From: Bryopsis sp. KO-2023
Lineage: Eukaryota; Chlorophyta; Ulvophyceae; Bryopsidales; Bryopsidaceae
DNA: 64,000 nt
Reading direction: 5' to 3'
Assembly (NCBI GenBank): GCA_030272585.1
Contig: BSYQ01000006.1
Coordinates: forward strand, 5,481,001-5,545,000
The notes under the pieces: generated by a model
Database searches by the model: none
The model's input: only the letters and a program-made list of their open reading frames with translations
Told to the model about the DNA's origin: nothing
Shown: in pieces, positions 21,701-61,512 of the stretch
Layout of the letters: the number at the start of each line of letters is the position of its first letter
How positions within the stretch are numbered: position 1 is the first letter of the stretch
Position numbers and translations under genes: made by a program

Positions 21701-23353
21701 CCACCGTAACTTTGTAGATGTCCCCATACTCGCTCTGCGAAAAAAAAAATCAAAATGAAAATTTCAGAAAGTGAAAAAAAAAAAGGAAAAAAGGAAAAAA
21801 AAAAAAACACAAGAAAAGATGAGGAAAACAGGAACAAAAAAAAACACAAGAAAAGATGAGGAAAAAAGGAACAAAACAAAAAAAAGAAAAGATGAAAAGA
21901 AAAAATCCAAAAACAGATGAAAAATAAAATCCAAAAAAAACTTTCCCTCACCTGGACCAAAAAGAAAAACATGTTCTTCCTTTTGTGCATTGCATAGGTG
22001 ACGATCAACACCCCTCGATCCGCCGGCAAATCCGACCGCCTCGGAATGACTGCCCGGACCTCCTCGGGGGATTCCATGTTTCGATACATGATGAAATTCT
22101 CCGCACACACTAACACCCCACTGGGCCCGTCGGCACCCCCAGGGACGGGGATCAAGAGATTGGCCCCGTTATCGATTGGTTCGACGGCTTTTCGGAGAAC
22201 ATGATTGAGCCCCAGATCCAATTCGTAGTAGCTGAGGTGTTTTTGGGCCTGAGATGCGGCCTCGCCGGTGGAGTCCTGATGGAATAAGAATTTATGCTTA
22301 TTTATTTAGGGACCAGGAGTTTTTTTAATTGAAAAAACATTGAAAATAACCCGTATTTGGAAAAGTGGTTGAATGGAAAATAGTGTTGTTTTTTTTGGGG
22401 GTCAGGAGCAAAAGGAAGATGTTTTTCTTTATGAATTTTTTCCCTTCGAAATGCTTTATTTTTGTGTTTTCCACGAAGCTCAGAAGCATACCATGTATCA
22501 AAATGACAAAATTTCTTGTTTGATTCATTTGGGAAAAAAAAGAAACTCAAGAGAAGGAGTTGTGTGAAACTGGGGATTTGTTTAGAAAAAGAGGAATTGG
22601 AGTTACTGAGTTTGCTGTTCTTTTCGCACTTGGTCGGCGTTCTCGTAGTCCAACTCGATTGCCGCGAAAACAGGGTTGTCGAATCCGCAGTCCATCCCGC
22701 AGACCGAAAACACGATGACTTTCGCTTTGTGGGCTTCCAGCGGAGACGATATCGTCAGGTTCGCCGCGTTATCCCTGTTCAACACGTACACGAATTTCTG
22801 CTTCTCGCTCGCCACCAGCATGCAAGCTCTTCCCTTGGGATCCCCCGCCAGAAACTGCCCCGGAACGATACGTCGCACCCCCGACCGCCCGAACGTTTCC
22901 TGGTGAATCTTCACGAACGTATTTTTATCGGCAGAAAACTCGAGGATCACGACGCGTCCCGAATCCGAGCCCACCATAATATAATCGCGGGACGCACCCG
23001 TGAGTCGGAAAGGGAGCAGCGAACGAACGCATCCGAACACCTCCACCGCACACACGCTGACGACTTTCCTGTTTTCGTTGGGACGGAGCAGTTCCAAGAT
23101 CTTCCCCCTCGAGACGACGATCTCCTGAGCTTTGGGTGCGGAAAAGTTTCCATATATCGCGCACTGGCCGGACAAAAACATCACCCCACAAAAAACAAAG
23201 TTGACTTTCAAACCATCACCATCACAGCGTGATCTCCAACTCGAGCGGAACGCGAAAAAGACGTCAGAGCAGTTTGTCAAATAAAACTGAGGTCCTGGCT
23301 CTCTGTACCTGAATAGCCGACGCCCGGCTGAGCGTCAAATTGTACAGATACAT
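15763..23353 (-). CDS. SF3B3: Splicing factor 3B subunit 3 (SF3b130/RSE1), 16 exons, 1218 aa
   Basis: SF3B3 is a triple beta-propeller scaffold of the U2 snRNP SF3b complex and helps recognise the intron branch point. The minus-strand exons are 23353-23309, 23163-22630, 22275-21952, 21734-21561, 21100-20945, 20808-20593, 20212-20003, 19810-19580, 19291-18964, 18641-18382, 18123-17868, 17705-17480, 17123-16986, 16762-16660, 16440-16084 and 15861-15763. They sum to 3657 nt with every phase consistent, giving 1218 aa, one residue longer than the human protein. Family signatures include the start [118 protein letters not shown] and [17 protein letters not shown]. The C-terminus [16 protein letters not shown] closes the last propeller. 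The gene ends in TAG, which shows that TAG is a stop in this genome. Identification is secure; individual splice sites are manual. Confidence 0.97.
16456..16532. repeat. Tandem duplication in an SF3B3 intron
   Basis: Two adjacent copies of a roughly 36-41 bp unit beginning TCCACAAAGAGATTTCTTTA lie within the intron between the exons at 16440 and 16660. One copy has a 5-nt indel. It looks like a recent local duplication. Confidence 0.75.
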
Positions 23354-23667: not shown

Positions 23668-26600
23668 ATGGATTCGGACTATTGTTACGACGACTCTTGC
23701 AGCTCGGACTCGGATGACTCTGAGTGGGATACGAAAACGGAAACGTGGTCGGAGAGGGTGGATGGCGCTATAGAGAACATCGTCAAAGATTTCTCCAAAG
23801 ATAGGAAACGGCTGAACTGCGTCGTTTGCGTGAGGAAAAACAGGAGAGGCGCGTGTCCGGACATCAAAGCCCTCGTTCAGCATTGTGGGACTGTCGCAGA
23901 GCACAAAAAGAAGCACAGGCAATTTAAGGAGGCATTGGAGAAGGCCGTGCAGGAAAGGGGCCTCTCGATGCGGACGCTCGACGTGGGAAATGCGGCGACG
24001 AGCGAGACGGCGTTCAAACGCGTGGAAGCGGACGACAAGGGGAAGATCGTCCAGCCGTACGTTCTCCTGGTGGAGAACGTACCTTTGAAAAGCTGCGACC
24101 CGGTGTTGTGTGGGATGGATGAGGAGTGGATCTGCTGTAAACTCGGAGATCAAGGGATCAGAAACTTCTCATACGCTGGGCTCCTCCCAGAAAGCCCTGA
24201 CTTCCTTACGACTTTCGGATTCAAAGCGCGCGCGTATGCCGTTTTCGACCAAAATGACGATTTGGCTTTGGCACACGAGCACCTCCGACAAAATGGGTTG
24301 GGGCGAGGTGATTGGGGTGCTAAGGAACAGCGTTTGCGGCAGATCCCCACTTGCGAGAAACTTTTTGGTTACAGAGCCACCGTTGACGACTTGAAGAAGC
24401 TCGATCCGAGTCGGAGGGTGATCAAGTGGCACGAGGTCGATTTCAACGAGACGTGTTTCTTGCCCGAAGTGAAACGGTTGGAGCAGACGGTTGCGTTGAG
24501 GAAAAGGGGTTTGGAGATCGAGACGAAGAAAAAGAAGCTTGCGGAATTACGAGCGAAGTCGGAGGCAGGACTCGAGAAACAGAGATTAATTTTGGAAAGG
24601 CGGCAGAATGAGCTGAAGTCGTGGAAGAAACGCGTGGAAGAGGTACAGTCGGGTCACCCAATACCGCCGCTTTGAATAGCGCCGTACTCGATATAACGCC
24701 GGTTTGAAACTGGGAAAATCTTGGCACACCTTAAATGTGATCCTAGATGTGGCTGAGAAACTGTAGAACTAGGACAGAAGTGTGAAACCATAGGAAAACA
24801 ACTTTAAAAACACCAAAAATCTTCCATTAGACCAGTTGTACAACTGTCGTGACCAAAATCGTCTGATTTCGGACACGCAAAATCATTGTTCCAGTCATTG
24901 CATCAAAAGAGGACTTGAATCGATGTCTTTCGATTTGAACTTTCGGCAGCAATTGTTTCAAGTGTTTTCCAACACTTCTTCAAATTTTTGTGATTTTTGA
25001 GTTATTTGGGGTGTGTTTGTTAGGGGCCTGGATTTGTCCAATCTTTTGCTGTTGGTTGGACAAATCTAGCCTCATCTTTCATCCACTTCCTCAATTACAT
25101 TGCACTCAAAAACATAGCCACGGGGTCGTGGTTCTCTCAAATAAATTAGCGCACTTCAAAAATACCCAGCACGGCGGTAACAGACACGAATTACAGGCGA
25201 AAAATCGACGATTCAGACGATTTTTCGCCTGAATTAAGTCACGATTCGTCGATTACTCACAATTTACGTAGGCAATCGAAACGAAACTTTGATGGTGGCT
25301 GTGCAATGTTTTTAACATACTACAGTTAAAATTTCGAGGCGTTTCAGAAAGTGGTTGCCTAAAAATTTGGGATAAAAAAATACTCTCTTATTGGCCACTT
25401 TTTGGTCACGAGAGTTATACTGTAAGATATCCCGAGAACCTCCTTACAGTACAACTGGTCATTACACCACAGAAATGTAAGCTCACTTTCTTGAAAAGAA
25501 CACAACAAAGAACCCTACATCTTCCAACGTCATTTGCTTTTTCTTTTGGAAACTCTTCTTCAGAATCGCTTGCTGGAAGTTCAAACGTTTTCGCTTTGGA
25601 GGCATGGCTACGGCTGCGAATTTGCTTGCCAGCGATTTCATTCGATTAGACTTTTGTGTCATTTTCGACCTATAATGTGAATACCGCCGTACTCGATATA
25701 CCGCCGGTTTTTTTGAGCTGACACACACCGGCGGTATTGCGTGACCCGACTGTATGTTCTTATTCCTGTTAAATTAATAAAATAAGTAGGAAAAAAAAGA
25801 GGAAGGCAATATAATAATGGTAACATATTATTTACTGGTTTTGTTTAATCAGTTCAAGTGTTTTTTTTTTTTTTAATATTCTGTTGTCTTTCTTTGTTTG
25901 TGTTTTTTTATTTTCAGAAGAGGACGAAATTTTTGAAAAAGAAAATGCATCATAAAAAATGAAATCCGTGCTTCTTCTTGTCAGCACATTCTGTTGCATA
26001 TCTTCCTCTTGCTTCGCTTTTGGATTTAAAAAAATATGTATATTTCATTTTATTCTCAGTCAGAACTGGTGCTCCTGAAAGAAAGGGAGGCTTCCTCCCT
26101 GAGATGCGAAAAAGAGGTGGAGGCTCGTTCCAGAGATTTCGAAACGAAAATGCAGGAGCTCAACAATGTAGACCAAGAAGACAGCAAGGCTGCCCAAGAG
26201 AACTTTATCGCTGCTTTCGTGGCAATGAAAGATGCCCAAGAGGACCTTGACGAGTGAGATTCAACTTCCAAAAAAGCATAGAATGGAAAAAAGAAAGAAA
26301 GAAAACAGTGAATTTTTTGATGTACGAAAGGAAGGGGGAAAAAGCCCAGTGCAATCAGGAAAAGAAAATAAGGGGTTTTTCTGTGTACGTTTCTGCGTTT
26401 CTTTTATCGTGGTGGTGGTGGGGGGTCTGGCACCATCATTTTTGCTCTGATCAGTTTTATTAGATATGCTGAATTGAAATGCAATTCATGCACCCCTGGA
26501 AATTGGATCGTTGAAACCGTTCCGAGTGTTTTCTTTTTTCTTTTTTTCCGTTGCTTGTTTTAAGGCATGCTGTGATATTTTCTATGGGTTCCCCCCCCCC

Positions 26601-27394
26601 CCACAAGTTTTAATTAATAAGTGTCGTTTTCCTTCTTTTTTTTTCCTTTCACCAGGGCCCAAAAACTTCATGATGAGAGAGTCTTGGAGGTGATCAACCA
26701 AAAACGTGCGGTCGATGAGCTTCGAAACAGCTCCTTGGCAAGTTCCATCGAGACGCATAAACTGGTCAAGGAGACTGAAACCATTCAAAAGAAACTGGCA
26801 GCCATTGAAGAACAAGTGGAATTGAAGCGGACCAGACTGGCAGAGGCATCAGAGCCGAAAGAGGTGTGTATTGCATACAGTATCAGCAAGAAAAAAAAAA
26901 AGAAAATCCAGAAGTTTCTCAGCTGAACCAACCTTCCTTCTCGATGTTTTATTCATTGGCATTGGATTTTTCCCCCCTTTGGGTTTCCATATTATTAAAA
27001 GTGTGTAATTTTACAGATTTCAGAAATATTGCAACCCTTTGTTTTGCAGGCAGATGATGAAACCATGGACGAGGTGTATAAACAGTTTGAAGTGCTGGAG
27101 CAGTACGGTCTTTCCATTGACTCGTTGGACCATTTTGATTGCGCGGAATGCTATAATTCCAAATGCAAGCAGCCACTGTTGAAGCCGCCGCCGATTTCGA
27201 TGAAAGGCACGATGCCCAACTACGACGCAGAGTTGCGCAAATCCAGATCTTTGCTGATCCCCTGCTGTTGTGCCATTTATTGCATGAAGTGTGCCAGGTT
27301 CATGGTAAAGAAGAAAATGCAGTGTCCGAAATGCAACACAGGGAGGCCGGTAGAGAAGGCCATGGAGTTCACTTTGTTTGGATACAGGGATTGA
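23668..27394 (+). CDS. SGS3/FDM-like protein: zf-XS, XS domain, coiled coil and C-terminal RING-like finger, 4 exons, 573 aa
   Basis: XS proteins (SGS3, FDM/IDN2) bind double-stranded RNA and act with RNA-dependent RNA polymerases or in RNA-directed DNA methylation in plants. The exons are 23668-24642, 26060-26253, 26656-26863 and 27050-27394, all in phase. The fourth could instead start at 27016, also in phase. An acidic N-terminus is followed by a zf-XS finger (Cys51, Cys54, His72, His83). The XS domain (about 128-258) has YVLLVENVP, RAYAVFDQND, the HLRQNG...DW block and KLFGYRATVDDLKK, which match the late conserved XS blocks. A coiled coil covers about 262-480. The tail has a RING-like set: Cys490, 493, 498, a CCC cluster at 531-533, Cys537, 540, 551, 554. 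The usual RING His is a Cys (IPCCCAIYCMKC). Land-plant FDM proteins carry an XH domain there instead. Intron 1 is enlarged by a transposon (24646-25752). Domain assignment is by eye; function is inference. Confidence 0.85.
24646..25752. mobile_element. TA-flanked non-autonomous DNA transposon (Tc1/mariner/pogo-like) in intron 1 of the XS gene
   Basis: The ends are inverted repeats: CAGTCGGGTCACCCAATACC on the left and the complement of a nearly identical 26-nt end on the right, with one mismatch (CCC versus CGC). TA dinucleotides at 24644-24645 and 25753-25754 form the target duplication. A subterminal motif containing GTACTCGATATA occurs near both ends (about 24687 and 25690). A small minus-strand frame around 25605-25483 starts MPPKRKR, as many pogo-type transposases do, but it is only 42 codons and not a full enzyme. 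The 1107-bp length fits a deletion derivative or MITE. Confidence 0.85.
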
Positions 27395-33643: not shown

Positions 33644-34116
33644 TGTAGTGAATCCGCCTGCAGACCGCTATTGTGGGCTGCTGGCTGTGAACTGCAAGCC
33701 TAGAACGGCTTGGAGGGAAAGAATAGACGACTTGGAAGCGAGACAAAGGGAGTTCAATCCCAAAGTAAGGTTACAAGAACGTTCAAACCCCAAGAACTTA
33801 TAGAATACCCTAGCAGCCTTGATCCTAACTGATCATAGGCTGTAACATCAGTCTGCATCAATGCTGCAAGGCATCAAACCTTGCAGTCCTTTCAATCAGA
33901 GCCCAGCTCAGCCCCACGGCCAATCCTGTGGTGCTGAGCGACCTTCTAGAACATTCTAGCTGCCAGCTCAGTAGTCCACGTACTACTTCACTGCCAGCAC
34001 ACCCTGACTGACTGTACGCTGCCTCAGGGCAGCCAACCTCCTACTTAAAGTACTGCAGGACTGTCAGCAAGCCTGCTGACGTACTGCAGGGCTGTCAGAA
34101 ACCCTGATTCGCTACA
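33644..34116 (-). repeat. 3' LTR of the outer chromovirus
   Basis: This 473-bp copy matches 61040-61512 except for two substitutions I noticed (in the CGGCCAATCC and CAGCCAACC segments). It is flanked on the outside by TCAAG. Confidence 0.95.
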
Positions 34117-45408: not shown

Positions 45409-45830
45409 TGTTAGTCTTTTAGCGCTATACGAGGTAGTTTGGGATAGAGCCGAGGGTGGCTGACGCATGTGGGTTCACGAGTAAGACAGATTAGACCCAG
45501 AGTTTGGGGCATGCGTCAGCGTACTACACTTAGGGGTACTTAAGAGGCCACTCGTTGTTTTGACACTCATAGTTACTTTGTAAGAACTCGGGATTCGTGG
45601 GATTGGTGTGTTCCCGCTTGTGTGTGTGTTTGTGTGTGTGTTTGTGTTAAGTGTTTGCCTGACGCAATCACTTCCCAACCTAAGTGCTCTAGTAGCGTTC
45701 ACAACCGCGCTAGCTAGAGAGTTGTCTAAACCAACAAACCCCACAAGTATACTTGCGTTAGCCAGCAAGTTATCACGAATCCAACCAACACAGCCGACCA
45801 CTATTGCGTCACCCACAAGCTTCACTATCA
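45409..45830 (+). repeat. 5' LTR of chromovirus B
   Basis: 422 bp, begins TGTTAGTC and ends ACTATCA. It includes a GTGTGTGTTT-type microsatellite that is the same length in both copies. Confidence 0.96.
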
Positions 45831-55085: not shown

Positions 55086-55507
55086 TGTTAGTCTTTTAGC
55101 GCTATACGAGGTAGTTTGGGATAGAGCCGAGGGTGGCTGACGCATGTGGGTTCACGAGTAAGACAGATTAGACCCAGAGTTTGGGGCATGCGTCAGCGTA
55201 CTACACTTAGGGGTACTTAAGAGGCCACTCGTTGTTTTGACACTCATAGTTACTTTGTAAGAACTCGGGATTCGTGGGATTGGTGTGTTCCCGCTTGTGT
55301 GTGTGTTTGTGTGTGTGTTTGTGTTAAGTGTTTGCCTGACGCAATCACTTCCCAACCTAAGTGCTCTAGTAGCGTTCACAACCGCGCTAGCTAGAGAGTT
55401 GTCTAAACCAACAAACCCCACAAGTATACTTGCGTTAGCCAGCAAGTTATCACGAATCCAACCAACACAGCCGACCACTATTGCGTCACCCACAAGCTTC
55501 ACTATCA
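55086..55507 (+). repeat. 3' LTR of chromovirus B
   Basis: 422 bp, identical by eye to 45409-45830, followed by the GCAGC duplication. Confidence 0.96.
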
Positions 55508-61039: not shown

Positions 61040-61512
61040 TGTAGTGAATCCGCCTGCAGACCGCTATTGTGGGCTGCTGGCTGTGAACTGCAAGCCTAGA
61101 ACGGCTTGGAGGGAAAGAATAGACGACTTGGAAGCGAGACAAAGGGAGTTCAATCCCAAAGTAAGGTTACAAGAACGTTCAAACCCCAAGAACTTATAGA
61201 ATACCCTAGCAGCCTTGATCCTAACTGATCATAGGCTGTAACATCAGTCTGCATCAATGCTGCAAGGCATCAAACCTTGCAGTCCTTTCAATCAGAGCCC
61301 AGCTCAGCCCCACGGCCATTCCTGTGGTGCTGAGCGACCTTCTAGAACATTCTAGCTGCCAGCTCAGTAGTCCACGTACTACTTCACTGCCAGCACACCC
61401 TGACTGACTGTACGCTGCCTCAGGGCAGCCAGCCTCCTACTTAAAGTACTGCAGGACTGTCAGCAAGCCTGCTGACGTACTGCAGGGCTGTCAGAAACCC
61501 TGATTCGCTACA
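61040..61512 (-). repeat. 5' LTR of the outer chromovirus
   Basis: 473 bp, the partner of 33644-34116, followed on the plus strand by the TCAAG duplication (61513-61517). Confidence 0.95.

Follow-up and report, generated by a model that had tools for sequence, protein, structure and literature searches.

A predicted SGS3-like protein with a C-terminal RING-like finger in the green alga Bryopsis sp. KO-2023

Gene model and coding evidence

We analysed a stretch of 64,000 nucleotides of the Bryopsis sp. KO-2023 genome (C6:5481001-5545000 of the 91.09-Mb assembly in 28 contigs; hereafter the window), and focus here on a predicted gene that joins an SGS3-like zinc finger and XS domain to a RING-like finger. 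A sequence-only reading had taken its source for an apparent protist; it is in fact a green alga (Chlorophyta, class Ulvophyceae). The gene lies at 23668-27394 on the plus strand (C6:5504668-5508394), and its four exons, with in-frame joins and GT-AG ends, give 573 residues and a stop codon, as the sequence-only reading had modelled. Exon 1 (23668-24642, 325 residues) encodes an acidic N-terminus, a zf-XS-like finger of the form C51-x2-C54-x17-H72-x10-H83 (23818-23916), an XS domain at about residues 127-245 (24046-24402), and the start of a coiled coil. It is followed by intron 1 (24643-26059), which holds a terminal inverted repeat (TIR) DNA transposon (24646-25752, plus strand). Exon 2 (26060-26253) and exon 3 (26656-26863), judging from their composition, would continue the coiled coil, and exon 4 (27050-27394, including the stop codon) carries the RING-like finger, whose putative ligands run from C490 to C554 (27140-27334).

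The stop-to-stop frame holding exon 1 is 362 residues long, compared with a longest chance open reading frame (ORF) of 207 residues in the median and 305 at the maximum of 60 simulated windows. The in-frame codon score of every exon is positive and higher than in its five other frames, and exons 2 (0.40) and 3 (0.36) exceed the 95th percentile of stop-free window pieces of like length. Because the scoring scale was trained on two long ORFs only and exon 4 falls under that percentile, we take the codon scores as modest support for the gene model.

Among 7,994 candidates scored, with lengths of 315-1002 aa, from a collection of 5.8 billion proteins, none matched the full 573-aa model at E <= 10. 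This collection does contain the protein of a paralogous gene on contig C1 (see below) yet gave nothing for the window gene, and the latter may therefore be absent from public annotation, or present there in a form outside 315-1002 aa.

Relationship to SGS3

Exon 1 scores 21.8 bits with a profile made from 119 of the 120 SGS3 proteins retrieved; none of 300 shuffles exceeded 3.8, and the best unrelated member of a control set of 671 ORFs reached 4.6. This control set was drawn from the window and from the loci that remained once the two XS gene loci and L020-L039 had been excluded; exon 1's own stop-to-stop frame, which is part of it, scored 21.5 bits, and the same profile gave the C1 protein 10.5. 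The match is colinear over residues 66-245, corresponding to the second half of the zf-XS finger and the XS domain. When aligned to SGS3 with hhalign, the protein reached a score of 49.5 and a probability of 90.8 over residues 51-242, the maximum of 60 shuffles being 25.1. Residues 40-105 alone (29.0, shuffle maximum 23.4) and residues 125-270 alone (27.4, shuffle maximum 21.4) also exceeded their shuffles, by smaller margins than the whole. At the scale of the whole genome, a land-plant SGS3 (P0002) searched in six frames produced a single match at E <= 10, which is exon 1 (E 8.3e-4; 4 candidates scored), and the Pfam XS profile found two places at E <= 10, the C1 locus and the window gene (2 candidates scored).

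These similarities extend to individual residues. The putative zf-XS ligands C51, C54, H72, and H83 align in register with SGS3, which bears out the Cys/His spacing described in the sequence-only reading, and the blocks that it had named in the XS domain (AVFDQND, HLRQNG, KLFGYRATVDD) align with SGS3 as well. The N-terminus is acidic, similar to the Asp-rich stretch ahead of zf-XS in SGS3. A helix is predicted at residues 259-324, after XS, and together with the composition of exons 2 and 3 agrees with the coiled coil proposed earlier. The SGS3 layout, in which a coiled coil follows XS and no more domains come after it, is departed from here by the RING-like finger added at the end. The Pfam zf-XS profile gave no match in the 573-aa protein, nor at the window gene in the genome search; its best genome match (18.6 bits, cut-off 22) falls outside both XS genes, at C1:3868982-3869092 on the minus strand (L041).

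In a structural comparison with a low-confidence model of exon 1, the top row was 4e8u_A, the XS domain of IDN2, and RNA recognition motif (RRM) structures appeared lower down. Foldseek returned no match at E <= 0.001 with this model, and exon 1 alone had no XS match among PDB sequences. A mixed profile did find 4e8u among PDB sequences at 6.8e-7, but we discarded this match as evidence because 4/6 of the profile rows are SGS3.

The protein had been described as SGS3/FDM-like, and only the first half of this description can be kept. An FDM-like identity was rejected: Pfam detected no XH domain in the 573-aa protein, and it is SGS3 that finds the gene. On these two grounds, an SGS3-like rather than an FDM-like assignment of the predicted protein is supported. 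XH was not found in the genome either, in a search whose controls were silent too.

The RING-like tail and the C1 paralogue

Exon 4 encodes, in order, the motifs CxxC, PCCCxxxCxxC, and CPKC. The putative ligand set is C490, C493, C531, C533 (at the His position), C537, C540, C551, and C554, with C498 and C532 to spare. In alignment with the C1 paralogue, the PCGHxxxCxxC motif of the latter corresponds to PCCCxxxCxxC, so that His is replaced by Cys, as the sequence-only reading had recognized. Compared with PDB sequences, exon 4 found RNF4 first (E 0.0013), and RING E3 proteins made up 10 of the 17 rows at E <= 10. Exon 4 also has a partial duplicate on the same contig, 4.9 Mb off, at C6:621364-621699 on the minus strand (L007 865-1215). 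The similarity starts at 27137, inside exon 4, and amounts to 84% identity over 356 alignment columns; the frame of the duplicate is open, the finger Cys are kept, and zf-C3HC4_3 scores it at 25.7 bits. With respect to exon 4, a dN of 0.127 and a dS of 0.204 over 83 codons provide weak evidence that the duplicate may be under constraint.

The C1 locus was modelled as nine exons encoding 520 aa, with an XS domain over the Pfam cut-off (32.5 bits, profile 4-112 of 113). After XS comes a charged, proline-free stretch, which we read as a coiled coil, and the last exon contains an ordinary RING pattern (CxxC...CGH...C...CPTC; zf-C3HC4_3 18.5 bits, E 0.0018, cut-off 27); the protein is without zf-XS. 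The donors of this model include GTGGGG and GTGGGA. It was built before the deposited protein BSKO_01379 was seen, and the two are identical from M8 to the end. Because the same succession of XS, coiled coil, and RING recurs in the paralogue, the predicted XS-coiled coil-RING architecture is a repeated one in the Bryopsis genome and no accident of one model, and the fusion of XS and RING put forward by the sequence-only reading becomes credible for the window gene.

When the same protein collection was searched with the XS portion of the C1 protein, BSKO_01379 itself was the one match among 4,050 candidates, and thus no further XS-RING relative was reached, that of Selaginella (discussed below) included. 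IMG/VR yielded no relative of the C1 protein, and among PDB sequences its XS region matched 4e8u with no better than E 0.36.

Contig C10 carries four RING loci (L037-L040) in which the last exon is akin to the RING of the C1 paralogue and coiled-coil-like exons lie upstream. They are spread over the contig and look like a small separate family. We set them aside as XS genes because inspection of the four by eye showed no XS upstream. The Pfam XS genome search gave no match on C10.

Silencing machinery in the genome and other features of the window

Counterparts of the silencing machinery, to which the sequence-only reading had pointed as partners to look for, are present in the same genome. 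The cellular RNA-dependent RNA polymerase (RDR) is represented by 20 exon matches at 3 places, with the DLDGD motif in all three, and Piwi by 27 matches that group into 12 places, some of them single exons. Double RNase III domains occur at two loci, in one 1478-aa frame on contig C5 and in separate frames on contig C16; a scan of seven frames showed neither helicase nor PAZ. DNA methylase gave 6 matches at two places. From these similarities, Bryopsis appears to hold counterparts of SGS3, RDR, Dicer-like (DCL), and Argonaute (AGO) proteins. The C5 frame (L051 3045-7478) has its two RNase III domains near the end, gave no helicase or PAZ match, and may correspond to an unusual Dicer- or Drosha-like protein.

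Within the window, the divergent neighbour of the XS-RING gene is a partial RSE1/DDB1/CPSF1-type protein at 22603-23331 on the minus strand (Pfam first beta-propeller, 194.8 bits), which stands outside the proposed system; some 340 bp separate the end of its open frame from the start codon of the XS-RING gene. Two pairs of identical 300-nt direct repeats were also observed. One pair (45409-45708 and 55086-55385, 9.7 kb apart) possibly represents long terminal repeat parts of a young element, and the other is found at 33644-33943 and 61040-61339, 27.4 kb apart.

Proposed function and alternatives

We favour, with somewhat better than even confidence, the view that the window gene encodes an SGS3-like chlorophyte protein that partners an RDR, and that its RING is most likely an E3 module in cis limiting amplification. 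As in SGS3 and IDN2, the zf-XS finger and the RRM-like XS domain would bind RNA, and the coiled coil would form dimers, as it does in IDN2. The protein would pass Argonaute-marked transcripts to the cellular RDR, whose double-stranded RNA product would feed the Dicer-like enzyme; a role as RDR partner in secondary small interfering RNA (siRNA) production is what the domain similarities most likely indicate. The C-terminal RING is probably an E3 ubiquitin ligase module that targets the protein itself or its partners in cis, and the resulting ubiquitination would limit the amplification step.

Several observations weigh against this proposal. Of the Pfam profiles by which the sequence-only reading would have had the protein recognized, zf-XS did not match, and two others score weakly. 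XS (PF03468, cut-off 25) reaches 16.4 bits in the protein, 17.2 in exon 1, and 17.8 in the genome scan (profile 4-112 of 113), and zf-C3HC4_3 (cut-off 27) reaches 17.5 bits in the whole protein and 20.9 (E 3e-4) in exon 4 alone; what holds is the XS relationship, through the SGS3 profile and hhalign scores above their shuffles. The codon score of exon 4 (0.22) is under the 95th percentile (0.27) of stop-free window pieces. Finally, the transposon begins 3 bp past exon 1 and is followed by sequence starting with TATGT, and the gene could yield a truncated product with its end at 24675.

The RING of such an SGS3-like protein could instead be structural only, serving as a zinc-binding dimer or protein-contact module devoid of ligase activity. 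Its noncanonical ligands (Cys for His, and additional Cys), its score below the Pfam RING cut-off, and its failure to fold alone (pLDDT 44 when the RING exon was modelled by itself) are consistent with such a role, but at the corresponding position the C1 paralogue has retained an ordinary finger, although at 18.5 bits this finger is itself under the cut-off of 27. Moreover, RINGs of the C4C4 type with E3 activity exist, for example CNOT4. We regard a purely structural RING as unlikely.

We give no more credence to a functional split of the gene by the transposon, whereby the mRNA would end in or retain intron 1, a short zf-XS-XS protein would be made, and the RING exon would be decaying. The inserted element is 1107 bp long and flanked by TA on either side, and its terminal inverted ends agree at 23 of 24 bp; because of these inverted repeats and flanks we rejected a retroelement as the occupant of intron 1. 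It lies 3 bp inside the intron, and the donor therefore now reads GTACAG. At least eight other near-full-length copies in the genome (94-97% identity; 40 of 69 candidates scored) suggest recent movement, and the protein collection, as noted above, gave nothing for the window gene. Nevertheless, the GT donor and the exon frame are intact despite the insertion, GTGGGG and GTGGGA donors are used in the paralogue model that equals the deposited protein, and the reading frame of exons 2-4 is open and outscores the alternatives. The splice from exon 1 across the transposon-bearing intron 1 toward the RING is a predicted joint.

Less probable again is a role outside silencing: the protein would bind RNA in mRNA turnover or splicing, carry a RING, and have its XS fold in common with SGS3. 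Such a role would suit the divergent RSE1/DDB1/CPSF1-type neighbour, the RRM structures lower in the structural match list, and the description of XS as RRM-like in the literature; however, the best genome match for SGS3 is the window gene, the top structural row is the XS of IDN2, and silencing partners are present in the genome. That there is no XS protein at all, and that chance motif matches in unrelated exons account for the model, is very improbable: sub-threshold Pfam scores and the lack of an XS match for exon 1 alone among PDB sequences would agree with it, but the shuffle controls, the single whole-genome SGS3 match, the colinear alignment, and the paralogue all argue otherwise.

Comparison with known systems

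An SGS3-like gene in an algal group thought to be without SGS3 would be of real interest for the RNA-silencing field. One study reports SGS3 in charophytes and none in Chlorophyta (PMC5907777), and another describes SGS3, RDR, DCL, and AGO together in no alga examined (PMC4457045). Our literature searches, which did not take in the paper of Ochiai et al. (2024, Plant J) on the Bryopsis genome, turned up neither the zf-XS-XS-coiled coil-RING combination nor SGS3-like genes in Chlorophyta. If Bryopsis does have counterparts of all four, the SGS3 step either predates the streptophytes or was retained or acquired in a single chlorophyte lineage, and the E3 module within the SGS3-like protein would allow the restraint of siRNA amplification to be tested directly. 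In Arabidopsis, according to one report, SGS3 is ubiquitinated via a separate F-box protein, SGIP1, and autophagy can remove SGS3 (PMC11371168). We also offer a broader conjecture, which we hold as tentative and more doubtful than not: XS-coiled coil-RING might be the ancestral green-plant form of SGS3 and FDM proteins. In the common ancestor of chlorophytes and streptophytes, the RDR cofactor would already have had a ubiquitin ligase of its own that held back siRNA amplification; land-plant SGS3 would then have lost the RING while control passed to separate E3s such as SGIP1.

The window protein resembles SGS3 of land plants and charophytes in its acidic N-terminus, zf-XS ligands, XS domain, and coiled coil, which come in the same order, and it is 20-24% identical to the 20 SGS3 proteins aligned. 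It is unlike them in its RING-like finger, since the 120 SGS3-type proteins listed carry Pfam zf-XS and XS only. With IDN2/FDM proteins, which act in RNA-directed DNA methylation, it shares XS and a coiled coil, and the XS structure of IDN2 (4e8u) heads the structural rows; those proteins end in XH, whereas the window protein ends in a RING-like finger, with no XH found in it. The RING coiled-coil genes of contig C10 have a RING last exon like that of the C1 paralogue and differ from it in that XS was not seen. A precedent for XS-RING proteins in a land plant comes from Selaginella, because an XS protein without zf-XS in this plant (XP_002979112) has a C-terminal RING zinc finger, according to its description (PMC5907777). 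BSKO_01379, the C1 paralogue, is built alike and lacks zf-XS as well. The window gene, compared with the Selaginella protein by description only, resembles it in its XS domain and C-terminal RING-like finger and differs from it in having a zf-XS-like finger upstream.
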